Shown: piece by piece, positions 2,896 to 19,491 of the stretch
How positions within the stretch are numbered: position 1 is the stretch's first letter
How the letters are laid out: each line of letters begins with the position of its first letter
IMG/VR virus record: IMGVR_UViG_3300008624_000088
Coordinates: 1-20,118 of that record
Length of the DNA: 20,118 nucleotides
DNA from: a virus
Reading direction: 5' to 3' (one strand)
Notes under the pieces: model-generated
Database searches by the model: none
Seen by the model: only the letters and a program-made list of their open reading frames with translations
Told to the model about the DNA's origin: nothing
Translations under genes and position numbers: made by a program

Positions 2896-3435
2896 ATGAA
2901 AATATATACAAAAATAATTTATAAATGGATAGATGGTCAGCTAGTAGAAACATCTTCTGAATCCTTTGAATACGAAGGAAACCTTACCCTTTGTGGAGGA
3001 GGTGGTGGTGGTGGAGGTAAAGGTGGAGGAGGCTCAAGTGGAGGTTTGGGTGGTTCATTAGGTTCAGTAGTAAGTAGTGCCACAGGAGCAGTAAGTGATG
3101 TAGCAGAACAAGTTGAAAATGTAGTAACAGATCCAGTAGGTACTGTAAAAGACTCTTTTTCACCTATAACTGATCCAATCCAAGAGAAAATAGTAGACCC
3201 ATTAATGGAAACTTTCGTGGAAGATCCTGCGGAAGACGTTATGGAAACAATGGCTGAAGCTGGAGGAGTAGGAGAAGAAGAAGAAGAAGATAAAGCCACA
3301 GGTAAAGGTACGGCAGACAGATTAAAAGGTATAGGAGCTTCACTCGCACATAAAACGAAAACAGGAGGAGCACAAGGTAAATTTACTAGAGGATCATTAA
3401 GAGTAAGACGACCTACCTCTACTATGAAAGCTTAA
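2896..3435 (+). CDS. Gly-rich putative tail-assembly / ejection protein, T7 gp7.3-like position (179 aa)
   Basis: Modular, low-complexity protein directly before the portal gene, as gene 7.3 is close to gene 8 in T7. Residues 1-33 form a short beta-like head ending in EYEGNLTLC; I recall similar starts (E-Y-x-G-x-x-x-L-C followed by Gly) in small podovirus proteins next to portal genes. Residues 34-57 are almost all Gly/Ser with an uninterrupted run of eight Gly. Residues 58-130 are an Asp/Val/Pro-rich segment with DP repeats (TDPVGTV, TDPIQEK, VDPLMET, EDPAEDV). Residues 131-137 are Glu/Asp-rich. A basic tail ends KFTRGSLRVRRPTS. Acidic middle plus basic R-G-S-L tail is shared with T7 gp7.3, a virion protein needed for adsorption/ejection. 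Function is inferred. No Shine-Dalgarno is visible before the ATG, which follows the previous stop by six bases. Confidence 0.7.
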   Translation: MKIYTKIIYKWIDGQLVETSSESFEYEGNLTLCGGGGGGGGKGGGGSSGGLGGSLGSVVSSATGAVSDVAEQVENVVTDPVGTVKDSFSPITDPIQEKIVDPLMETFVEDPAEDVMETMAEAGGVGEEEEEDKATGKGTADRLKGIGASLAHKTKTGGAQGKFTRGSLRVRRPTSTMKA

Positions 3436-7195: not shown

Positions 7196-7268
7196 GGGCA
7201 ACAGGAGGTTCTCTTCCAAACGGAGTGATCCTTCCTCTCTCCATTACCTCCTGCTCTGCCCTTTTTTT
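7196..7268 (+). terminator. Rho-independent terminator after the capsid gene (T7 T-phi position)
   Basis: GGGCA (7196-7200) pairs with TGCCC (7257-7261), and CAGGAGGT (7202-7209) pairs perfectly with ACCTCCTG (7246-7253), with a small A/CTC internal bulge. A run of seven T follows immediately (7262-7268). The apical part (7210-7245) is long and may fold further (GGAG with CTCC). T7 has its only late terminator, T-phi, at exactly this place between genes 10 and 11, where partial read-through gives excess capsid over tail proteins. Confidence 0.88.
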
Positions 7269-7287
7269 CTTACCTTCATTATTCAAT

Positions 7288-7899
7288 ATGGCTACTTTAA
7301 CACCCACTTCAAAATTAGATGCTGTCAATTCAATCCTTTTAGGAATTGGAGAAGCACCTGTAAATACACTCGGATCAGGTTTACAGGAAGCAGAGATTGC
7401 TGAAGTAACTTTAAATAATATTAGTAGAGAAGTCCAATCTCAAGGATGGACTTTCAATACAGAAATAAGATATTCTCTAGCTAGGGATGGGGCAGGAGAA
7501 ATTAATCTACCAAGTAATTGTTTAAAAGTAGATACTACTACAATTTTACGAGATTACAAGACTGATGTAGTTGAACGAAGTAGAAAATTATACGATAGAG
7601 TTACCAATTCATTCACTTTTACCAAAGATATAGAAACAGATATAGTCGTCTTATTAGGTTTTGAAGAGTTACCTGAGACTGCGAGACGTTATATAACTTT
7701 AAGAGCAGCTAGAAAATTTCAAGAAAACATTCTAGGATCTTCCACATTATCTCAACTTCAAGCAGATGAAGAACAATTAGCCTTATTTGCATTGAAAGAG
7801 GCTGAAGCTGAAGCAGGAGATTATTCAATATTTGATCAATACGATACTTACCGACACATTGATAGAAAAATAAATTCATCTATCTCTACCCTTCTTTAA
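7288..7899 (+). CDS. Tail tubular protein A (gatekeeper), T7 gp11 family
   Basis: Forms the ring that joins the portal to the nozzle and helps retain DNA. The start is placed at ATG 7288, giving 203 aa (T7 gp11 is 196 aa). An in-frame upstream extension to the GTG-like codon at 7225 would translate the terminator hairpin and adds an unrelated hydrophobic stretch. From the chosen start the family pattern begins at once: SKLDAVNSILLGIGEAPVNTL (about 6-26), then NNISREVQSQGWTFNTE (about 44-60), a GFEELPETARRYITLRAARKFQ block (about 120-141) and an Asp/Tyr-rich C-terminus. No Shine-Dalgarno is present; translation starts 19 bases after the terminator T-run, on read-through mRNA. Confidence 0.95.
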   Translation: MATLTPTSKLDAVNSILLGIGEAPVNTLGSGLQEAEIAEVTLNNISREVQSQGWTFNTEIRYSLARDGAGEINLPSNCLKVDTTTILRDYKTDVVERSRKLYDRVTNSFTFTKDIETDIVVLLGFEELPETARRYITLRAARKFQENILGSSTLSQLQADEEQLALFALKEAEAEAGDYSIFDQYDTYRHIDRKINSSISTLL

Positions 7900-7908
7900 A
7901 TATTAACT

Positions 7909-10848
7909 ATGGCATTAGTATCTAAATCCATACCTAATCTTATAAATGGAATTTCACAACAACCTCCTGAAGTAAGATTACCCTCTCAAGGAGAAGTTCA
8001 AGAGAATGGGTTAGCTTCTGTAGTAAGAGGATTAGAAAAAAGGCCAGGAACAGAGGTTATACAAAAATTAGATTTCACACCAACTGGTAGTTACCTTATT
8101 CATTCAATAAGAAGAGATGAAGCAGAAGAGTACACTTTAATTCTAGGTAAATCAGGAAGTACTAAGTTCTTAAAAATATTTGATGGTGATGGAAATGAAA
8201 TGCCTGTGGAAGGTAATGATTATTCTGGTACTTTTGATGCTTTAGTAGACGGAGATCTAGGATATTTCTCTGAAGTCACTGATTATAGTACTCAAGTAAC
8301 TGCTACTACTGTTACTGATACTACTTTCTTTTGTTCAAATCAAAAGACAATAGAAGTAGCTACTGCTAATGATCAAACTTCTGGACAAGATACTCCTGCA
8401 TTTAAGTCAGATAGAGGAACTACTTCACTTACTTCTGATAATCATAGAGAAGCTTTAATTTATATTAAACAAGGTGGTTTTAATAGTAAGTACGAAGTAA
8501 CAATAAAGGTAGGAAGTCAACATTATAAAGTAGGATACCAGACTCCTGCTACTGCACCTGTAATGAACCAGCAGTATATAGGTACTGAGACTATTGCAAG
8601 AATTCTTAAAAAGGGTTCAGGTGAATGTGATGGTACTGGTTGGGGACAATTCACTGCATCAGATGCAAATTTAAAACTAGAAGGTTTTGGAGGTAGAAAA
8701 CCAGAAGAAAATAAAGATGCAAATGGAGATACTTCTGCTGATCATTGGGACGGATTTGATGATTCTGGTGCAATGCCATCAGGTATGACATGTACAAGAA
8801 CAGGGAGTGTCCTTCACTTTGTACATACAGCAGATTTTGAATTAAGCACTTCTGACTCTCATGGTGATACTGATTTATTCCCAATAATGGGTGCACTTGG
8901 AGGAGGTACTACTAAAAAGTTCTCAGATCTCCCATCATCAGGTGTTCCTAATGGTTTTGTTACTAAAATAGCAGGAAGTAATACTGGAACTGAAGACGAT
9001 TTCTATGTGAAATGGGAAGGTAATAGTCTAGGAAAAGGTGTATGGAAAGAGTGTGTTGGCCCTAACTTAGATCATCATTTTAAATATTCCACTATGCCAC
9101 ATAGGTTAGTCAGAGTATTTGATGATACTAATATTACTTCTGTAAATCCTTTAGGAATTACATTTGTTTTTGAAGCAGTAGTAAGTACTACAGATACACG
9201 AACAGTAAGCAGTTCAAGTACTACTCACAATAGAATAGGATGGAATGCGAGATTGGCAGGAGATGATACCTTAAATCCTTTTCCTTCCTTTGTAGGTAGT
9301 GCAGTAACAGACATATTCTTTCATAAAAATAGATTAGGATTTTTAAATGATGAGAATGTGATTTTTAGTGAAGCAGGAAACTATTATAATTTCTTCCCAT
9401 TAACTGTCATAACAGGAGTCGATAGTAATCCTATTGATGTGACAGTATCAAATGATAAAGTATCCCTCCTTAAACATGCTATCCCATTTAGTGAAACCCT
9501 CTTATTCTTCTCTGAGCTACAACAATTCAGATTATCAGATCAGGGTGCACTCTCTCCAGCAACCGTTTCCATTGACGTAACTACCCAATTTGAAACTGAT
9601 GCTAGAGCTAAACCTGTGTCAGTTGGAAGGTACGTATTCTTTGCTTTTCAAAGAGGAGAGTTCTCAGGAGTAAGGGAATACTTTGTAGATAATAGAAAAG
9701 AAGTTAATGATGCAGTAGAGATTACTAATCATGTACCTCAATATATACCAGGAAAAATTACAAATCTAGTATCTTCAAGTAATGAGCAAATTTTGGTATG
9801 TCAAAGTAGTACTGAACCTCAGAACTTATATGTATATAAATATTATTGGCAAGCAGAAGATAAGATTCAGTCCTCATGGTCAGTATGGAAATTTGGAAAT
9901 GATATTTTAAATTGTACATTCATAGGTTCCACACTTCAGTTACTTATTCATAGATCTGATGGAGTATACTTAGAAAATATTAATTTATCTACTGACTCTT
10001 CTGTAGCAATAATGGAAGATAAAACTTCAGTATTACTAGATAGAAGAATAAAGATTCAATCCTCTACAACTGTGGACACATTCTCCGATATACCCTATAC
10101 AGGTATCCAGAGTCTAGCTATTACAACAGCAGGGACAGGTTATACAGCAGGGAATTTAACTGCCACAGGAGGAGGAGGAAGTGGATTTACAGGTACATTT
10201 ACTGTAGGAGGATCAGGAGAAGTAGCTACTGTAACAATCACTAATGCAGGAAGTGGATATTCTTCTGTACCTACTATTGCACTTTCTACAAGTACAAGTG
10301 GAACTGTAGCAGTTATCACTCCCACTTTAGAATTACCTTCTAATATGGTATATGTAAATCAGAATGCACAAAAAGTTCTACAAAGTGATGTAGATACTTT
10401 AGTAGCAGGAGGAGATAAAATATATGCAGGAATACCATTTAATTTTAAGTATGAATTTACACGTTTCCTTCATAAGACTAAAGATGGTGTAGCAGTACAG
10501 TCAGCTAAACTTCAATTAAGGAATATAAATGTACTTTATAGTAAGACAGGTTTCTTTAAGTTAAACGTAGATGTAGAACCTTATACTATTAATATACCTG
10601 ATCCTGATAATCCTGGAGGTATAAAAGAAATAACACCTAGAAAAGCCTATGAAAAAACATTTAGTGGTTTCCTAACTAATAGTTCTCAGATTGGAGAGTA
10701 TAAATTATTATCTGGTACTTTTAAAAGTTCCATACTTTCTAGTCCACAAAATTGTAAAGTTTCTTTAACTAATGATGAATACCTACCATGTGCATTTCAA
10801 AGTGCAGAATGGGAAGGATTCTTAAATATCAGATCACAAAGGCTATAA
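7909..10848 (+). CDS. Tail tubular protein B (nozzle), T7 gp12 family, with inserted Gly-rich repeat domain
   Basis: Forms the tapered tail nozzle, a beta-propeller hexamer that seals DNA in the head and anchors fibres. At 979 aa it is much longer than T7 gp12 (about 794). Family signatures: MALVSKSIPNLINGISQQP at the N-terminus, GLEKRPGTEV, TMPHRLVR (about 394-401), NPFPSFVGSAVTDIFFHKNRLGFL (about 457-480), EAGNYYNFFP, KHAIPFSETLLFFSELQQF, TTQFETDARAKPVSVGRYVFFA, HVPQYIPGKI and a C-terminal AFQSAEWEGFLNIRSQRL. Two places account for most of the extra length: a loop at about 240-310, and a separate Gly/Thr-rich segment at about 733-804 (10105-10324) with two AGxGY units. The gene begins nine bases after gp11 with no Shine-Dalgarno. 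Confidence 0.96.
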   Translation: MALVSKSIPNLINGISQQPPEVRLPSQGEVQENGLASVVRGLEKRPGTEVIQKLDFTPTGSYLIHSIRRDEAEEYTLILGKSGSTKFLKIFDGDGNEMPVEGNDYSGTFDALVDGDLGYFSEVTDYSTQVTATTVTDTTFFCSNQKTIEVATANDQTSGQDTPAFKSDRGTTSLTSDNHREALIYIKQGGFNSKYEVTIKVGSQHYKVGYQTPATAPVMNQQYIGTETIARILKKGSGECDGTGWGQFTASDANLKLEGFGGRKPEENKDANGDTSADHWDGFDDSGAMPSGMTCTRTGSVLHFVHTADFELSTSDSHGDTDLFPIMGALGGGTTKKFSDLPSSGVPNGFVTKIAGSNTGTEDDFYVKWEGNSLGKGVWKECVGPNLDHHFKYSTMPHRLVRVFDDTNITSVNPLGITFVFEAVVSTTDTRTVSSSSTTHNRIGWNARLAGDDTLNPFPSFVGSAVTDIFFHKNRLGFLNDENVIFSEAGNYYNFFPLTVITGVDSNPIDVTVSNDKVSLLKHAIPFSETLLFFSELQQFRLSDQGALSPATVSIDVTTQFETDARAKPVSVGRYVFFAFQRGEFSGVREYFVDNRKEVNDAVEITNHVPQYIPGKITNLVSSSNEQILVCQSSTEPQNLYVYKYYWQAEDKIQSSWSVWKFGNDILNCTFIGSTLQLLIHRSDGVYLENINLSTDSSVAIMEDKTSVLLDRRIKIQSSTTVDTFSDIPYTGIQSLAITTAGTGYTAGNLTATGGGGSGFTGTFTVGGSGEVATVTITNAGSGYSSVPTIALSTSTSGTVAVITPTLELPSNMVYVNQNAQKVLQSDVDTLVAGGDKIYAGIPFNFKYEFTRFLHKTKDGVAVQSAKLQLRNINVLYSKTGFFKLNVDVEPYTINIPDPDNPGGIKEITPRKAYEKTFSGFLTNSSQIGEYKLLSGTFKSSILSSPQNCKVSLTNDEYLPCAFQSAEWEGFLNIRSQRL

Positions 10849-10851
10849 AAA

Positions 10852-11469
10852 ATGGCGAATCCAGCAGTAATTCTAGCAGCAGTTCAATTAGGTATTGGTC
10901 TTTGGAGTGCATGGAAAGGAGATAAAGCTGCTCAAGAAGCTAGAGATGCTGAAGCTGAAAGACGAAGGAGAATGAGAGAGTTAGCCATTAAGAAATATGG
11001 CTTTCAACAAGCACAAGCTTCAAAGAATTTAAGTTTATTAGACAGACAGGACACTAGACAAAGAGATATTGAAAAGAATGTAATATTTGCTGACATGGTA
11101 AAACAAAAGAAAATAGAAGGTAAAATATTAGCACATGGTGGAATGATAGGTAAAAGTTCTACATTCTATATGGATAAAATTACAGGTGATTTACTGAGAG
11201 GCCGAGAGGCAATTAAAGAAGACTTTTTACATAAAAGAATTAATACATATTTTAAGAAAGAATCAGTAGTAGACGGTTTAAAAATGGATAAACTAAATAT
11301 GGAGTATGGAATAGCAGGGCTTACTCCTCCTCCTGATCATGATAAATCTCTTATGTATTTACAAATGGTAAATAGTGGATTAAATTCTTATGGTACTTAT
11401 TATAAATATTCTAAACCTACACCTGATCCTAATTTAACATATACCAATCCAGGAAATCCCCACGTATGA
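10852..11469 (+). CDS. Internal virion protein, T7 gp14-like (205 aa)
   Basis: Probable small internal core protein that is ejected first and forms a pore in the outer membrane. Size (T7 gp14 is 196 aa), position between gp12- and gp15-like genes, and architecture agree. A short hydrophobic N-terminus (AVILAAVQLGIGLWSAW, about 5-21) is followed by a long Ala/Arg/Glu/Gln-rich amphipathic helix (about 22-75, with AQEARDAEAERRRRM and FQQAQASKNLSLLDRQDTRQ). The C-terminal third is Pro/Tyr/Asn-rich. Direct sequence identity to T7 gp14 is not obvious by eye, so the call rests on synteny and layout. It starts three bases after the gp12 stop; an AAGG about nine bases upstream, inside gp12, is a weak ribosome binding site. 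Confidence 0.8.
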   Translation: MANPAVILAAVQLGIGLWSAWKGDKAAQEARDAEAERRRRMRELAIKKYGFQQAQASKNLSLLDRQDTRQRDIEKNVIFADMVKQKKIEGKILAHGGMIGKSSTFYMDKITGDLLRGREAIKEDFLHKRINTYFKKESVVDGLKMDKLNMEYGIAGLTPPPDHDKSLMYLQMVNSGLNSYGTYYKYSKPTPDPNLTYTNPGNPHV

Positions 11470-11481
11470 GAATATTGAAAT

Positions 11482-14406
11482 ATGGCAGAACAATCTTATA
11501 GTCCACACGTTAGTCAGAAAGAATTTACGCCTGAACTTACTCAGTCTCGATTCGATCCTCCTACACCTAGTGGTGCTGATATTCAAAATACTTATAATCA
11601 GAAAAAAGCAATAGCAGATGCTATTATGTCTGTAGGACAATCTGGTGCTGATGCTTTTGGAAGAGCAAATTTAAGACAAATCGAACAAGAAGAATTAAAT
11701 GCCGCAGCAGAAGGAAAAATAGATAAAGAGAATTTAATTAAAGCAGAAATTGAAGGAAGGGCATTAGCGGCATCAGGAAAAGAGTGGAATGAGACTACTG
11801 CCAAAGATTTACTTAATAAAAGTATTCTGTATAGGAAAGGTAATCCTGAATTAGTAAGAAGAATGAATAGGGGATACCTCCTTAAATCTGGTGAGTTGAC
11901 TGTTGCTCAAACTAATAGTGATCTAAAGACTAAAGCTCCAGGTTTAATCAAAGAATTAGCAATTGAATGGAAAAGATTAAATAATAATTTTAATTCTGCG
12001 GCTCGTGCAGGACAAGGAGCAGGAGAATTTATTCCTGATTTTCCAGAATTCTTAGCTGAACAAGTTAATATTGAAGCAGGAAAAATAAAAGGAAAGTTCT
12101 TAGAGAAAAATCCTTTAATAAATGAAGTACTAGCAAAAGAAGGAAGAAGATTAAACTTTGATCCTGTATTAGCCGAAGCTTCTAAATGGTGGACAGGCTA
12201 TAAAGAAAGAGAAAAAGCATTAGCTATAGATACTAATCTATCCCAGAACCAATGGGGAGGAATGACAGGTGCAGAGTATCGTACTTCTGTACAGCCTAAC
12301 CTCATGAAGAAATTTAATCTGACTAAGCAAGAGGCAGATCTTGAAGCGATAGGATATTTAAAAGGATTGCTTATATCTAAAACAGATCAGGATGGAGACA
12401 TGTTGTTAAGTGATCCATTGTTTTCTTCTATAGAACAAATTGTAAAGTATCCTCATGAAGGAGTGACTCTTTTAGATGCACGAGGAGAACATAATACAGG
12501 AGCACAAGCAAAAGAATTGCTGGATTTAAGTAGAAAAATCTATAAAAGGATATATGATAAGTCTCAAGCACTTGCTACAAAAGGAAATAAAGAAAGAGAA
12601 AAAGGAATACAATTACAGTTTTCTCAATTTTCAGCTCAAATTCGTGATAAGTTAGCTAAAGCTAGTACTGTCGGAGAAATAGATGCACTTATAGGTGACG
12701 TAAGAAATCAAGTCGATAAACCAAAAGAAGATAATATTTCTCTTTTTGGTACTTTAGGTGGAGAATATGCTTCCCATTTACTAAAAGACTTAACTTCAAG
12801 GAGAAAAACATTAGAAGAATTAGGTAATAAACCTAAAGAACCTACTCCTGATCAGAAAAAAAATATAGATGATGCTATTGTCCAGATTTCAGATCAAACT
12901 TCTAGTGAAAGTATTTTACAAGAATATGATATAGAAGCTTTAGATTCAGTTATTTATGCTTTAGATGTTATCCGAGATAGAATTGATAAAGAAGGGACAG
13001 ATCATACTGCATATCTTCCATTCTATGAAACGTGGCATAAAGCGACTAAAGAAGTATCAAAAGTAAAAGCGGCAAAAATAAAAGAAGCAGACGAGAAAGA
13101 AAAAGCTGATAATATTGAGACTTTAAAAGCTAAAAATCAAGAAGATCAAATTGATAATAATACTAAAATTAATGCTAGACAAGTTACTCATGTAGAAACT
13201 ATTCATGATCAAATAGAGTTATATTTAAAGGCTGCTCCAGGTGCACGAAATGATAGTATATTAGAAAACTTAGAAAACTTACTAGTGGAAGATGTAGAAA
13301 AAATTCATATTACAAATAATGGATTAGGTACATATAAAACTACAGAATCTTTGTTTCATCCAGATAAAGTAGATGAGTATCGTCTTCTTATTGCTGCTCA
13401 AAGAGCTAAAACCCAACAAGAAAAAGATACAGAAGAAGGTGAACCAGTAGAAACTCCTCCTCTAACATATAAAGATATATCAGGGAAAATAGATTTATTA
13501 GTTAATAAACCTATTAATGAATTATTCTCTGCTAATGGAGAGCCTGATTCAGAGATAAGTACAATAAGAAAAGACTTATATACTAAATTAATTAATAAAG
13601 AAATATCTATTACACATTTTGAACATTTCAAAGGATTTCTTAATGGTATAGAAAAAGATATTCATAAAGTTTTAGATGATACTTATGGATCTAAAACTGT
13701 GTACGATGAAGCTGATCGTGAGTTATTTCGACAAGTTACAGGTAGTGGAGAAGAAGGTATTAGTACTCCGCTTGATGGTAACCAAAAGAAATTACTTGGA
13801 GAAATGCGTGGTGATTTAATGAGATTTCATCAGAGTATGATTAAAAGACATGGAGATGTCTTTCTTCAAACAAGTATGGAAAATCATCCATTGAGACAAG
13901 GTATATTGAACGCTTATGTCGAGTATTTAATAGGAAGAGAATCTTCTAAAGTTATTGTAGATAAATATTTAGATGTAAGAACTGTCGCAGGAGAAGAGAA
14001 AAGAAGGTTCACTCCTGAAGAAGAAGAAGTTCTTAGAAATGCTATACCTAAAGGTAACTCTCCTCATGCTAAAGCTTTCAATGCTCTTTCCTATAAATTA
14101 GGAAGTAGTGTAGTACCTCCTACTGATACTACTACTACTTCTGATACTACTACTTCTGATACTACTACTACAAGTTTATCAGATACAATGGAAGTAGTAG
14201 CGAAAACCCAAGATCTAGCAAAACAAAATAATGTACAGATTAGTAATGAAGAGATTATGAAAAATATTAAGGCTGGAAAAACTCTTACATTTACAGAATC
14301 AGGAGATTTTGTAATGGAACCAGCATGGGTAGATAAGGAAATAATTCCAATAAATGAATTAAATAATACTACAGACAATAAAGTAAAACAATCTTTAGGA
14401 TTTTAA
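11482..14406 (+). CDS. Internal virion protein, T7 gp15-like (974 aa)
   Basis: Probable internal core / ejectosome protein that crosses the periplasm during DNA entry. It follows the gp14-like gene as in T7 but is longer (T7 gp15 is 747 aa). It is polar, almost entirely helical in character, rich in Lys/Glu/Gln/Asn, with no signal peptide or membrane segment. A region near 520-570 (about 13039-13190) is strongly coiled-coil-like (KVKAAKIKEADEKEKADN). The C-terminal region carries an Asp-Thr-Thr-Ser repeat linker (residues 882-898) and then a basic tail. The N-terminal IADAIMSVGQSGADAFGRAN segment resembles starts of other gp15-like proteins. Assignment is by synteny, size class and composition; no catalytic motif is seen. 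The start is 12 bases after the gp14-like stop, with no clear Shine-Dalgarno. Confidence 0.8.
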   Translation: MAEQSYSPHVSQKEFTPELTQSRFDPPTPSGADIQNTYNQKKAIADAIMSVGQSGADAFGRANLRQIEQEELNAAAEGKIDKENLIKAEIEGRALAASGKEWNETTAKDLLNKSILYRKGNPELVRRMNRGYLLKSGELTVAQTNSDLKTKAPGLIKELAIEWKRLNNNFNSAARAGQGAGEFIPDFPEFLAEQVNIEAGKIKGKFLEKNPLINEVLAKEGRRLNFDPVLAEASKWWTGYKEREKALAIDTNLSQNQWGGMTGAEYRTSVQPNLMKKFNLTKQEADLEAIGYLKGLLISKTDQDGDMLLSDPLFSSIEQIVKYPHEGVTLLDARGEHNTGAQAKELLDLSRKIYKRIYDKSQALATKGNKEREKGIQLQFSQFSAQIRDKLAKASTVGEIDALIGDVRNQVDKPKEDNISLFGTLGGEYASHLLKDLTSRRKTLEELGNKPKEPTPDQKKNIDDAIVQISDQTSSESILQEYDIEALDSVIYALDVIRDRIDKEGTDHTAYLPFYETWHKATKEVSKVKAAKIKEADEKEKADNIETLKAKNQEDQIDNNTKINARQVTHVETIHDQIELYLKAAPGARNDSILENLENLLVEDVEKIHITNNGLGTYKTTESLFHPDKVDEYRLLIAAQRAKTQQEKDTEEGEPVETPPLTYKDISGKIDLLVNKPINELFSANGEPDSEISTIRKDLYTKLINKEISITHFEHFKGFLNGIEKDIHKVLDDTYGSKTVYDEADRELFRQVTGSGEEGISTPLDGNQKKLLGEMRGDLMRFHQSMIKRHGDVFLQTSMENHPLRQGILNAYVEYLIGRESSKVIVDKYLDVRTVAGEEKRRFTPEEEEVLRNAIPKGNSPHAKAFNALSYKLGSSVVPPTDTTTTSDTTTSDTTTTSLSDTMEVVAKTQDLAKQNNVQISNEEIMKNIKAGKTLTFTESGDFVMEPAWVDKEIIPINELNNTTDNKVKQSLGF
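14125..14175 (+). repeat. In-frame DTTTTS repeat tract in the gp15-like gene
   Basis: Three tandem units each begin GAT and continue with ACT codons and a Ser codon (18, 15 and 18 bases; 14125-14142, 14143-14157, 14158-14175). They encode D-T-T-T-T-S, D-T-T-T-S and D-T-T-T-T-S. The third unit differs only by ACA AGT in place of ACT TCT. The tract probably forms a flexible linker before the last ~75 residues and is a likely site of unit-number variation. Confidence 0.85.
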
Positions 14407-14412
14407 AAGAAT

Positions 14413-17400
14413 ATGGCAGAAACTATTGTACCAGAAGAGATAGTTCAGGAAGAACCAGTTATAAAGACTGAAGCTGTTCAAGAAAACCCAGTAGAAGTTC
14501 CTGATGTAAGTGCTCAGATAGAAAAAGAAAAACTAGAGAGTAAAAATCCTTCAGAAATAAAATCTCCCGAATTCAATAAGGAAGAAGTACCAGATTTTAA
14601 AACTGAACCTTTAAGTACCACATCTTCTGTAAAACAATTTGTAAAGTATCCTAAAGAATATGTAGCAAGACAAAGTGCTGTATGGTTACAAGGATATTCA
14701 GAAAAAACTGGGATATTTGATACTGAAACAGGTATATTAAAAGATGCAAGTGCTAAAGAAGTTGTAGAATTTATACAAGATCAAGAAAATAAAGAAGGAA
14801 AAATAAATTCTTTAACTAATTTCCTAAAGAAAGAGTTTGGAACTATAGCACAAAGAGAAGAATGGGGGCCATTAGATTGGACTTTTTATAATGCTTATGA
14901 TCAATTTAAAGGTATTAATCATATGGCTTATCAAATTCTACAAGGAGACAAATGGTTACCTGGCCCACCAGCAGAAGAGCCTGAGACTGTAGGAGGACAA
15001 ATTGCAGGATTTGGTGGACAAGCTTATTTAAGTTATAAAACAGGTGGACTTATAAATGCACCTAAATGGGTAGGAAAAGCTATTCCAGCATTTGAAAGCT
15101 TCATGAAACTGCCAGCAGTGAAGGGAGTAGTACAAATGGCTACTGGAGAAGGTGTGACGCTCCCTAAAGAGTACAGACTTTCTACTGTAATGGCAGATGT
15201 CTTTGAAATGGATGAGGGAATATTTGCAGAACTTGCTGCTTCTGAAGATGAAGGAATATTTGAAGGAAGATGGAAGTCTTTCTTAGATGGTTTCTTTACA
15301 GGAGTGGGAGGACATTTATTAGTTCCTCCTTTAATTTATTTTGGAAAACAATTATATAGAGGTGGTTCATTTACAGCAGATAAAATAGGAAGTACAAGAC
15401 CTTTCAAAGCTGTAGCAAATAAATTAAAAGAAGTTAAAAATAATTATATTGAACTCTTTCCTGAGACAATAGTCACTAAAAGAGATGTCAATATTAATAA
15501 AACTATTCCTAAATTAAAAGAAGAACTACAAGCAGAGATAGCACGGAAAGCAGGGAAAACTACACCAAAAGTTAAAACTGAACCAGCACCTTTACTTGCT
15601 CCTCCTTTACATCAAAAAGTGGCACTTGAAGTTGATAGTGCTAATTTTCGATTTGAAGATCCGAATGTTCCTCCTATTACTAAAGAGAAGTTACCTCCTG
15701 AAGCAAGTATTACAGAGAGACAATTAACACTAAAAAATATTTCTAGTGAAAAAGTAAAAAAGAAATTCAAAGCTAATAGAAAAATTCCAGATGGGACTAT
15801 TGTAGAGGTCAGACCTACTATTTCTCCTGCTGATGCTTTAAATACCAGACAGGGAAAAAGAGTTCTAGTTACTGTACATCCTGATCCTAAAACTTCAAAG
15901 AAACCTAAGAGTCCTGTTGGTTATGATCATGCAGTAACTTTAAGAAATGTAGAATTTAGAGTAAATCAGGATGCAAGATACGAAATAGCTTCAGGTAAAA
16001 GTTCTAAATTTCCTGCAATGACTGCAAAAGGAGAGATAGTACAGACTAAACCTGTATTTGAAGGTATAGAAGTTAATTTTAATCCTAAATCAGATCACTT
16101 ATTTAGAGTAGTAGAGAATGGTCTAGCTATTAGAAGTGCTGAAGAGGCAGTAGTATTCGATCAAAGAGTTCTAGTTAGAGGAAAAGTTACTTATTGGGAC
16201 AAAGCTTCTGCTCCTAAACCTAAACAAGGTAAAAAAAGTGGTACTAAGTTTAAATATCAGGATAGAAAAAAAGAATTAATAACTGATACTGAGACAGTAA
16301 TAGCTCCAAAAGCTAAAGGTAGAGCAGAAGATTTAGCACTTACACCTGAAGAAATTGAAGAGTTTATCTCAGGGCCAATTGATACTAAGAAGATTCTTGG
16401 TAAAATTAATCTTCAAAAGATTGTAGCTGATCATGATGTAATACGAGCTATTGAAGTTCTCAGTGAGAGACTCCCTAAACATATCCCAATGTCGGAAGAA
16501 CAAGCTAAACGTGGAGCGGCAATGTGGATAGAAGAATTGAAATTAAAAGGTGTGGATGTAGAAAACTTTTTAGCTCAATTAGGAGGAAAAACTAAAGATT
16601 TAGTATATCAAGTTCTTGCAGCTCGTATTCTACATACTAATCAGATGACAAAGTTTGCAGAAGCCGCACAAGAACTTGCAAGTAAAGCATTAACTACTAG
16701 ACTTTTGAAAGAAGAAATAAGACAAGCTAAATTAAAAGGAAGAAGTACTGAAGCTTTAGAAGAAAAACTTGCAAAAGAAGGAACAAATTTAGATGATTCC
16801 CTAGTCGTACTTATGGAACTTGCTAAAGGACATCAAATGCAAGGGTTTTTAAGTGGTACTAATACCGATATTGCACGAGTTCTACGCTTCCAACAGATTC
16901 CTATTGTCTCTGAATTAGGAGATTCTCAAGTTATTACTGATATTGTAGAAAGAGAATTACAAAATCTGGAAGCAATGACAGGTGGACGTTATAATGCTCA
17001 AGAACTAGTAGAAGATTTCTCTATTAGAGTAGCAGAGCTTGTTGATGATGCTCAAATTAGTAATATGGTGAATAAACCTGTATTTACTAGACTTTTTGAA
17101 GGTATTAATTTTATAAATATAAATGCAATGTTGTCTAATTTTGCTACAAATTCTGTTAATATAACAGGAACAGGCATAATGACAAACTTACTTGCTACAG
17201 AAAAGATACTAGGTTCAATATTTAGTAAAATTCCAGGACTTAGAGGAAAAACTGCTGGAGCAGGAGGCTTTAGAGAGTCTTTTCATTATATATTTGGTAT
17301 GACTCAAGCTTTATTAGAAACAGCATGGTTCACTGAGTCTAAAATATTTAATAGATCTGCTACAGGTCAAGCTTGGCAAACTTTTAAATCAGGTAGATTA

Positions 17401-19491
17401 GCTAAATTAGAACATGAACTACAAAAAGCAGGACTTAGTACAGGAGAAGAGACTTTAAAAGTACCTATTATTGGTGAGATGGGTGTTCCTGAACCACTAG
17501 GGCCAAAAGCTGTAAGTGATATAACTCGTCCTCTTACTCAAAAATTACTTGGTAAAGGTCTAGAGATAGGAGATAAGTCTGTAGCAGGAAGAATACTAAA
17601 AACTGCCTCTATAGGAATAGGACTTCCAGGTAGAGGTCTGCTTGCAGGAGACGCTTTCTTTAGAGAAATTAATTATAGAGCTATGATCCATACTTTATCA
17701 TGGAGAGAAGCTACAAACTTAGCAGGATCAGGAGCTACAACTGCTGAAATAAAAGCTACTTATAGAGAAATAATAAGAAATTTACCTGAAGAAATAGATG
17801 AAGCTGCCCAAATATATTCACAGATGTCTCTATTTCATGAAGACTTATCTCAAAAAGGTGTAGAAACTTTATTTCATTGGTTAGAGAAAAATAGGAAAGC
17901 CACGATAGCACCGGGAACTAAGAATTTCTTAATAAAGAATTTAGGAAGTAATGTAGCTACTTCATTCCTTCTTTCTAAAATGCCATTTGTAAAGACGTTA
18001 TATAATATACAAAAACAAATGATGTGGGAAAGAGGGCCAGTAAAGGCCGGAAGATTAGCTTATTCATTTGTCTCAGATGAGAATGCTGCAAAAGCATGGA
18101 CAAAAAATCCTCATCAAATGCAAGAAGATTTAGCTAAGATTACTTCAGGTTCTATGCTAATGTACTTAGGTTATGCAGGATATAACAGTTTTACTGTTGG
18201 AGATAGTAAAGTTCAGTATAATCTAAATAGTCCTGATATAAATACCAGAGACTTAGCTCAAGAAGAAAATAGAATGGTTCCAGATATAACTGTGAATAAT
18301 ATACAGGATGGTACATTACATTCTATTCCTACTGGAAGAGCCGATCCTCTTACTACTCCTGTAACCGCAGGAGCTTTAATAGGACTGTACGAAGATTTAT
18401 TTTTAGAAATAGAAGCTTTAGAAGAATCAGGAGATTTTATAGGAGCAGATCAGAAGTCGGATGAATTGATGCAACAGATATTCTTTCAGACAGGAATGTT
18501 CTTTACTGATAAAATGGCTCTTCAAGGACTAAAAGAAATTCTATTTAATGTTCCAGGATTAGATCATCCTTATGCTGATCCTTCTAAAATAATAAATGAC
18601 TATTTAGTAGAATGGTTAAATCCAGTAATATATGAAAGTCTACGAAAAGGTATAGCACGAGCAGTTCAAAATCAAGCTTTCTTACCTGAATCTAAAATTA
18701 AGCATAGAATAGTTCCTAAAAATAAACAAGAATTCAAAGGATCTATACGAGATAGACATGGAAATATACTAACTAAAGATAAAGTAGAACAATTAGATTA
18801 TATTTCCAAACTAGTTAATCTATGGATTGATAGGCAACGAAAATTACATATCATTGATCCTGATGGTGATCTTAATGAAGAAGGAAAGAATGATCCTATT
18901 AAACGAGGATGTTGCTGGCTAATGGACTTAGAAGGGAATCTTAAAGGATTCTCAGCTAAAGAAGAAGGTATGGCACGAAGATTCTTAGAGAATGTCTTTG
19001 CTCCTGTTTCGGTGAGAAAGGTTACACAGACTAATACTTCTGTACTTATCCGAAATCTAAAAATAGATTGGGAACATCCTAAGAGATGGACTAAATACGT
19101 AGTACCGGGAACAGGACAATACATTCCCTTAACTGCTAGACAACAGTTTACTTATGGAGCATTAGCAGGATTTTATAATAAACATGCTTTTAATAATCCT
19201 AGATTTGATAGAATTGTTAAAGCACTAAAAACTGATACTGATTGGAAAAATATACCAGAATTATCAAGTGCAACAAATCTTAGACTTCTTAAAGAAGAAG
19301 TAGAGCAAATGCTGATAAGTAATAAAATTCTTGCAGGAGCTACTTTTTTAGAAAGTCCCGAATTCAAATCATTATTAGATTTAGCTACAGAAATGAAAAT
19401 ATTAAAACATCCAGAAATATTAAAACAAAGTAGTGCAGAAAAACTACTTAATGATTTAACTCAGAAACCTCAAGAAAGACAGAACCTATAA
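14413..19491 (+). CDS. Very large internal virion protein, T7 gp16-like (1692 aa)
   Basis: Probable main internal core protein that is ejected, spans the cell envelope and pulls DNA in. It is the third gene of the 14-15-16 set and the largest in the window, but longer than T7 gp16 (1318 aa). Residues 1-75 are acidic and Glu/Pro/Val-rich, probably disordered. Residues 190-320 contain Gly-rich, partly hydrophobic helices (GGQIAGFGGQAYLSYKTGG; SFLDGFFTGVGGHLLVPPLIYFG). Residues about 429-599 are beta-rich (RKIPDGTIVEVRPTI, KRVLVTVHPD, HAVTLRNVEFRVN). The remainder is mainly helical, with a hydrophobic NININAMLSNFATNSVNITG-type segment around 897-920 and a GIGLPGRGLLAGDAFFREINYRAM block around 1071-1095. 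The lytic transglycosylase motif of T7 gp16 (E-S-x-F ... G-x-M-Q) is not seen at the N-terminus. Exact role inferred from synteny. Confidence 0.82.
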   Translation: MAETIVPEEIVQEEPVIKTEAVQENPVEVPDVSAQIEKEKLESKNPSEIKSPEFNKEEVPDFKTEPLSTTSSVKQFVKYPKEYVARQSAVWLQGYSEKTGIFDTETGILKDASAKEVVEFIQDQENKEGKINSLTNFLKKEFGTIAQREEWGPLDWTFYNAYDQFKGINHMAYQILQGDKWLPGPPAEEPETVGGQIAGFGGQAYLSYKTGGLINAPKWVGKAIPAFESFMKLPAVKGVVQMATGEGVTLPKEYRLSTVMADVFEMDEGIFAELAASEDEGIFEGRWKSFLDGFFTGVGGHLLVPPLIYFGKQLYRGGSFTADKIGSTRPFKAVANKLKEVKNNYIELFPETIVTKRDVNINKTIPKLKEELQAEIARKAGKTTPKVKTEPAPLLAPPLHQKVALEVDSANFRFEDPNVPPITKEKLPPEASITERQLTLKNISSEKVKKKFKANRKIPDGTIVEVRPTISPADALNTRQGKRVLVTVHPDPKTSKKPKSPVGYDHAVTLRNVEFRVNQDARYEIASGKSSKFPAMTAKGEIVQTKPVFEGIEVNFNPKSDHLFRVVENGLAIRSAEEAVVFDQRVLVRGKVTYWDKASAPKPKQGKKSGTKFKYQDRKKELITDTETVIAPKAKGRAEDLALTPEEIEEFISGPIDTKKILGKINLQKIVADHDVIRAIEVLSERLPKHIPMSEEQAKRGAAMWIEELKLKGVDVENFLAQLGGKTKDLVYQVLAARILHTNQMTKFAEAAQELASKALTTRLLKEEIRQAKLKGRSTEALEEKLAKEGTNLDDSLVVLMELAKGHQMQGFLSGTNTDIARVLRFQQIPIVSELGDSQVITDIVERELQNLEAMTGGRYNAQELVEDFSIRVAELVDDAQISNMVNKPVFTRLFEGINFININAMLSNFATNSVNITGTGIMTNLLATEKILGSIFSKIPGLRGKTAGAGGFRESFHYIFGMTQALLETAWFTESKIFNRSATGQAWQTFKSGRLAKLEHELQKAGLSTGEETLKVPIIGEMGVPEPLGPKAVSDITRPLTQKLLGKGLEIGDKSVAGRILKTASIGIGLPGRGLLAGDAFFREINYRAMIHTLSWREATNLAGSGATTAEIKATYREIIRNLPEEIDEAAQIYSQMSLFHEDLSQKGVETLFHWLEKNRKATIAPGTKNFLIKNLGSNVATSFLLSKMPFVKTLYNIQKQMMWERGPVKAGRLAYSFVSDENAAKAWTKNPHQMQEDLAKITSGSMLMYLGYAGYNSFTVGDSKVQYNLNSPDINTRDLAQEENRMVPDITVNNIQDGTLHSIPTGRADPLTTPVTAGALIGLYEDLFLEIEALEESGDFIGADQKSDELMQQIFFQTGMFFTDKMALQGLKEILFNVPGLDHPYADPSKIINDYLVEWLNPVIYESLRKGIARAVQNQAFLPESKIKHRIVPKNKQEFKGSIRDRHGNILTKDKVEQLDYISKLVNLWIDRQRKLHIIDPDGDLNEEGKNDPIKRGCCWLMDLEGNLKGFSAKEEGMARRFLENVFAPVSVRKVTQTNTSVLIRNLKIDWEHPKRWTKYVVPGTGQYIPLTARQQFTYGALAGFYNKHAFNNPRFDRIVKALKTDTDWKNIPELSSATNLRLLKEEVEQMLISNKILAGATFLESPEFKSLLDLATEMKILKHPEILKQSSAEKLLNDLTQKPQERQNL

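Follow-up and report, generated by a model that had tools for sequence, protein, structure and literature searches.

Does the large ejection protein of this phage lack the wall-cutting domain found in its T7 counterpart, and what would such a lack mean? The window, 20,118 bases long, is an entire environmental virus record with the gene order of T7-like phages (Table 1). Names given here to its portal, scaffold, capsid and reductase genes rest on sequence and order rather than on a family search. The bounds of the gp16-position ORF are exact (ATG at 14413, stop at 19491), and it starts 6 bases past the end of the gp15-position ORF. The product resembles T7 gp16 in its large size and its place between gp15 and the tail fibre. 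T7 gp16 begins with a transglycosylase (SLT) domain, whereas a sequence-only reading of the window had described a gp16-like protein without a visible lytic transglycosylase.

Table 1. Features of the window, with M15 peptidase ORFs from the records of two relatives
Feature	Position	Strand	Basis or remark
End of ribonucleotide reductase, then several ORFs without assigned function, portal, scaffold, capsid	first in gene order
Tail tube A (PF17212), nozzle/tail tube B (PF25675), gp14, gp15-position ORF, gp16-position ORF	after capsid
gp14-family internal virion protein	10852..11469	+	PF24072, E 5.8e-7
gp15-position protein, 974 aa, without muralytic match	11482..14406	+	mainly helical model, pLDDT 66
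gp16-position ejection protein, 1,692 aa, without recognisable muralytic domain	14413..19491	+
Acidic N-terminus, probably disordered, aa 1-80	14413..14652	+	composition, pLDDT ~30
Conserved N-terminal region, aa 81-385	14653..15567	+	helices in model, low to moderate confidence
Inserted module, aa 401-622	15613..16278	+	best conserved part of gp16; missing in L028
Phage_L5_gp82 match (PF25735), aa 502-587	15916..16173	+	E 3.4e-6; phrog_586 at E 0.013
Conserved ejection core, aa 852-1398	16966..18606	+	common to P-SSP7, Syn5, pelagiphage and roseophage gp16-position proteins
Start of tail fibre (PF03906)	after gp16-position ORF, window end
M15 peptidase ORF, L001 record	L103:5345-5725		motif and PHROGs
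M15 peptidase ORF, L028 record	L110:13252-13650		motif and PHROGs

Pfam found no SLT domain in ten window proteins, gp14, gp15 and gp16 included, and none appeared when all six frames of the 20,118-base record were searched (0/1); the control for the six-frame search was positive in 8 of 14 well-known genomes. The reading had also failed to see an E-S-x-F ... G-x-M-Q pattern, and a motif check agreed, as neither ES-x-[FYWL] nor G-x-M-[QA] is present in gp16. Two ES-x-[FYWL] matches occur in gp15 (residues 476 and 622), where the partner motif is missing. Controls were run because Pfam misses some phage hydrolases. It was blind to the lysozyme domain of phiKMV gp36, residues 753-874 of which matched T4 lysozyme at 2.5e-9 in a PDB sequence search; PHROGs label this protein too. 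We therefore do not equate lack of a match with lack of activity.

Five local profiles (SLT, lambda-R-like, phiKMV gp36C, M15 and Amidase_2) were built from hydrolases in these phages. Against 12 window proteins they gave nothing better than E 56, the best being SLT on gp14, and against gp15 and gp16 of three relatives (L001, L002 and L028) nothing better than E 35. Leave-one-out SLT profiles recovered the tested member in six of six cases (2.6e-5 to 2.4e-47). When the five profiles were run over 45 gp16-type entries (phiKMV gp36 among them) and 29 gp15-type entries, the only domains found were the ten that had served as profile sources, namely six SLT, three lambda-R-like and phiKMV gp36. PHROGs and PDB sequence searches, using single sequences and profiles, returned no muralytic match above chance for window gp15 or gp16; searches of the same kinds do detect the SLT domains of T7 and L079, the lambda-R-like domain of L082 and phiKMV gp36. 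The visible absence of a transglycosylase is thus borne out by Pfam, six-frame, motif and profile searches. The profile search for muralytic families that the reading had proposed left gp15 and gp16 unmatched among the 12 window proteins, and no sequence or profile match contradicting the reading turned up in either protein.

Several faint similarities were treated as chance. These were gp16 residues 103-154 to the PGRP homologue 3ep1 (E 3.2), a profile of the slot that holds the inserted module to beta-hexosaminidase (E 1.1), the lysozyme-like family Pesticin in 1 of 29 gp15s (E 0.0077), and phrog_3861 ("amidase") on the gp15 of HTVC019P (E 1.6e-4, no separate stretch). With seven gp15s scanned singly for Pesticin, that of L047 scored 0.065 at 837-884, again no separate stretch.

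The N-terminus of gp16 had been described as acidic and disordered. This fits the first ~80 residues, which contain 22.5% D/E and 11% K/R and are 22-35% identical to L001 and L002, and seems wrong beyond them. Residues 81-149 were modelled chiefly as helices (pLDDT 55-76), and the whole of residues 81-385 is conserved, with 63% identity to L001, 43% to L002 and 32% to L028; residues ~185-345 are matched in L008 and L009 too. Simple hydropathy gave no membrane segments in gp16 of the window, L002 or HTVC011P, and weak ones in L001, L028, L014, P-SSP7 and T7.

Structure models added little, because the gp16 model was poor and that of gp15 only fair, so that the folds of these proteins were barely tested. 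An AlphaFold model of gp16 residues 1-860 (13 rows) had a mean pLDDT of 44.5 and a pTM of 0.27. All Foldseek matches to this low-confidence model had E > 0.5, and structure-search rows lay mostly over the long helices at ~726-829. The peptidoglycan hydrolase 8aud (Z 7.7, rmsd 2.7 over 99) was rejected as a match, since only long helices were aligned and unrelated helical proteins gave equal Z. The gp15 model, mainly helical (pLDDT 66.3), had no Foldseek match reaching E 0.001. Of 50 structure-search rows for this model, 5 were podophage core or ejectosome entries, tied with unrelated helical proteins. These five were T7 gp15 (6yt5; Z 7.7, rmsd 22.5 over 195), 9k2v (Z 7.5, rmsd 3.4 over 78), 9vvp (Z 7.4, rmsd 26.9 over 271), 7k5c (Z 7.0, rmsd 23.2 over 197) and 9jyy (Z 6.7, rmsd 29.2 over 281).

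Relatives of the window proved more informative about what kind of protein this is. A scan with the nozzle protein listed 80 loci of at least 326 relatives (L007 is the record of L002); a pattern scan for relatives of gp15 found none. Full-length gp16 relatives lie on two independent contigs, L001 (70% identical) and L002 (48%); both are collinear with window gp16, start with MAE and are also without SLT. An iterative profile of the core was joined by 30 of 45 proteins at E 1e-3 or better. Nineteen of these are environmental (the window, L001, L002, L028, L014, L097, L009, L020, L008, L019, L049, L032, L033, L062, L081, L098, L079, L067 and L082), those of L019 and L020 running off contig ends. 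The other 11 come from named phages (HTVC011P, HTVC019P, HTVC025P, HTVC041P, Gjalp, CRP-114, CRP-118, CRP-125, LUZ100, P-SSP7 and Syn5), comprising P-SSP7, Syn5, five pelagiphages, three roseophages and LUZ100. The 15 that stayed outside were T7 gp16, RHEph21, phiKMV gp36 and gp37, L056, L069, L035, L047, L055, L057, L065, the truncated L040, L068, L070 and L084. Rows removed before the count were L007, L013 (truncated, with the same start as L020), L036 (a near copy of L033), L042 (with nearly the same start as L040) and L078.

Judged from sequence, window gp16 is of the P-SSP7/Syn5/HTVC011P core type. It shares with the proteins of P-SSP7 and Syn5 (phrog_6651), HTVC011P and other pelagiphages its gene position, large size, homologous core and lack of SLT. 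It differs in length (1,692 aa, where the proteins seen from P-SSP7, Syn5 and HTVC phages have 1,205-1,415 aa), in having an L5_gp82-type module, and in matching only phrog_586 and not phrog_6651 directly, the latter being matched by HTVC011P, P-SSP7, Syn5 and L098. Sequence homology to T7 gp16 was not detectable: hhalign, with T7 as a single sequence, gave a probability of <1%, and T7 gp16 did not join the iterative search.

The missing hydrolase was common in this sample. SLT was found in 5 of 46 T7-like records (T7 and four environmental ones), an undercount because many records are fragments perhaps short of gp16, and in 2 of 14 named phage records (T7 and RHEph21; three of the 14 are also among the 46). 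None of the 11 named phages with a homologous core had an SLT. For most named phages the tests were SLT plus the five local profiles on gp16; PHROGs searches covered CRP-118 gp33 and the two ejection proteins of each of P-SSP7, Syn5, HTVC019P and HTVC011P, and L097 and L098 were examined as proteins rather than as whole records. A recognisable N-terminal hydrolase is present in only three of the 30 core homologues: an SLT in L079, a lambda-R-like domain in L082 (lambda lysozyme structures, 1e-22) and another in L067, identified by its similarity to L082. In the core tree, a branch supported at 97/95 has all 27 hydrolase-free members to one side. L079, L067 and L082 cluster closely, with LUZ100, in which no hydrolase was found, adjoining them, and because the three sit together, two unrelated hydrolase families stand at the N-termini of closely related cores. 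The marine members sampled have neither an SLT nor a lambda-R-like domain at the N-terminus.

Absence of the hydrolase is therefore not peculiar to the window phage and looks ordinary, because the counterparts in several cultured marine phages are also without the domain. T7 is a poor yardstick, because its gp16 is not detectably homologous, and the expectation of a T7-type SLT was a weak premise for a core whose 11 named members have none. What survives of the sequence-only reading is the missing transglycosylase and the lack of any muralytic sequence match; what does not is the expectation drawn from T7. Mosaic placement of wall-hydrolase domains is in print, P22 and Sf6 having none (PMC8954989). 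A literature search, covering listings and freely available passages, found no statement that gp16 of marine T7-like phages lacks SLT.

The less ordinary feature of the protein is the unusually conserved module in its middle, rather than the missing wall-cutting domain. The PF25735 match in window gp16 scored 27.4 bits, just above the cut-off of 27, and the family was seen in 3 of 19 records searched, over the cut-off in L001 and L002 and under it in L014. L5 gp82 is an early, non-structural protein. Residues 502-604 of the module are 90% identical in L001, 89% in L002 and 71% in L014; the corresponding values are 72%, 46% and 28% (28-30%) for the gp16 core and 90%, 95% and 69% for the capsid protein. 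Conservation of the module is thus roughly at the level of the capsid protein, whereas the remaining gp16 diverges. Acidic residues such as D561, E568, E578 and D596 are invariant across six rows of the slot. L028, which the core tree puts nearer than L014 to the window, has no module and carries unrelated sequence in the slot, with nothing muralytic in its place. The module is also found (53%) in L097, a near neighbour of L014. A distant gp16-position protein of 2,337 aa, L098 (3487-10500), has a partial L5_gp82-like stretch (~33% identity), a HELIH motif at residue 1089, beyond the partial module, and the phrog_6651 core. A tblastn search of the module against the phage collection found none at E 0.1, the two matches returned (E 1 and 7) being at chance level.

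Codon usage hinted that the module was transferred between lineages. Between the window and L014, identical codons were used at 44 of 71 conserved residues of the module versus 116 of 263 in the capsid gene (p 0.011). The comparison with the core (74/150) was not significant (p 0.085), nor did identity at fourfold sites differ significantly (16/31 in the module versus 22/61 and 49/128); all these counts were recomputed from rounded percentages. Strong constraint may explain the same pattern. Other gp16-position proteins have a GNAT domain (L067) or ART-PolyVal (one member of A8). The module is a separately constrained insert and most likely a passenger that would be delivered with the DNA.

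Wall enzymes are encoded elsewhere in the genomes of close relatives. A Pfam scan covered 59 of the 115 ORF entries, some ORFs being listed twice, of the L001, L002 and L028 records. Among the matches listed, Amidase_2 was found in three ORFs of 143-144 aa, one in each record, and Peptidase_M15_3 in two; the M15 peptidase was not seen in the L002 record, which was scanned in part. Both enzymes are stand-alone ORFs without a counterpart in the window, which ends within the fibre gene, and in the relatives the M15 gene follows the fibre gene and precedes a terminase-sized ORF. The amidase of the close relatives is gp3.5-like. T7 gp3.5 is not known to be a virion protein. The same set of records (L103-L110) holds two ORFs matching NifU_N (best E 1.7e-50) and, in that of L028, a separate 352-aa ORF (L110:14643-15698) matching ART-PolyVal at E 6.1e-7 (30.7 bits; cut-off 31.2).

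We think it probable that these observations belong together as follows. The ORF would encode a marine T7-like phage's large ejection protein and belong with those of P-SSP7, Syn5, pelagiphages and roseophages. Analogy with T7 suggests that this protein would be ejected together with gp14 and gp15 and would form the inner part of a trans-envelope DNA channel. This channel would pass the wall with ejection proteins that carry no dedicated hydrolase, wall cutting at lysis would fall to the separate M15 peptidase and gp3.5-like amidase genes, which are present in relatives and presumably in the window phage, and the module would be a passenger acting in the cytoplasm. That a hydrolase is simply not needed is the simplest reading of the absence pattern; the thin host wall invoked by the sequence-only reading would be a conjectural reason for it. 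For P-SSP7, a tube that penetrates the cell wall has been described (PMC5345008).

It is unlikely, though worth weighing, that a muralytic domain has instead diverged past recognition in the slot (residues 401-622), elsewhere in gp16, or in gp15. The idea has to be kept in view because other podophages hold such domains away from the N-terminus, in gp15 or in the gp16 hub. The hub of the PhiM1 gp16 counterpart contains an inserted endolysin-like domain and its gp15 counterpart a lysozyme-like one (PMC11440229), and the gp15-like protein of K1E and K1-5 bears lysozyme activity (PMC8954989). The strong conservation of the slot and its invariant acidic residues speak for the idea, and the AlphaFold model gave no confident structure for the slot. 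However, neither the slot nor gp15 has a profile, PHROG or PDB sequence match to a muralytic family. PhiM1 and the window share a domain placed inside the gp16-position protein, but the PhiM1 insert is described as endolysin-like (PMC11440229), whereas the window insert matches PF25735, a family without a muralytic name, and the close relative L028 dispenses with the module with no muralytic match replacing it.

About equally improbable is that the activity comes from another virion-associated protein, for example an M15 peptidase or amidase carried in the particle. Such enzymes are separate genes in relatives, and both may lie outside the window record because it is a fragment; yet the site of the M15 gene downstream of the fibre is the usual place for lysis genes, the amidase resembles T7 gp3.5, and the other window ORFs tested gave no muralytic match. 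That an SLT was lost recently, or is masked by a frameshift or a wrong start in the record, is barely credible. The six-frame search of the record found none, only 6 bases separate gp15 from gp16, and the collinear, MAE-starting, SLT-free gp16s of the independent contigs L001 and L002 contradict recent loss or a frameshift.

If the hydrolase-free channel is right, the T7 picture in which the gp16 transglycosylase opens the wall would fail for this mostly marine T7-like group. Cultured members such as P-SSP7 and HTVC011P would then offer a natural way to ask how podophage channels get through peptidoglycan when they carry no hydrolase, and the conserved module in the slot would count among candidate proteins that enter the cell as infection begins. 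A bolder reading, which we hold to be possible but rather doubtful, is that gp16 is polyvalent and ejected, with a slot for exchangeable cargo separating its N-terminal region from its core, that the L5_gp82-type module travels into the cytoplasm along with the DNA, pre-loaded for an early function, and that other T7-like phages fill this slot or similar positions with other modules, an N-terminal wall hydrolase being one of several optional pieces. Polyvalent proteins are likewise large and probably ejected, with extra domains inserted, and the class frequently bears lysozyme domains too; they combine several disparate activities (PMC5512222), whereas window gp16 has an ejection core and one recognised extra domain.

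Other ORFs of the window gave minor observations. For a 265-aa ORF at 1604-2401, neither Pfam nor PHROGs gave a match at E 1. The listed GTG start of tail tube A (7225-7899) is probably too early, since its Pfam match starts only at residue 31 and residue 22 is an in-frame ATG. The nozzle protein (7909-10848) has 979 aa, of which residues ~721-803 match phrog_460 (head closure Hc2) at E 1.6e-9 and are likely an inserted glycine-rich domain. Between nozzle and gp14 (10849-10851) the window is without a gp13-like ORF, as are L001, L002 and L028, whereas an ORF of ~138-165 aa occupies this place in T7, HTVC011P and other relatives. Finally, a stretch of ~38 aa that starts with MKIYT forms the N-terminus of a separate glycine-rich ORF in the window (2896-3435) and of gp14 proper in L001 (6318-7055) and L002 (6101-6844), and by this distribution is a putative N-terminal tag moving between proteins.
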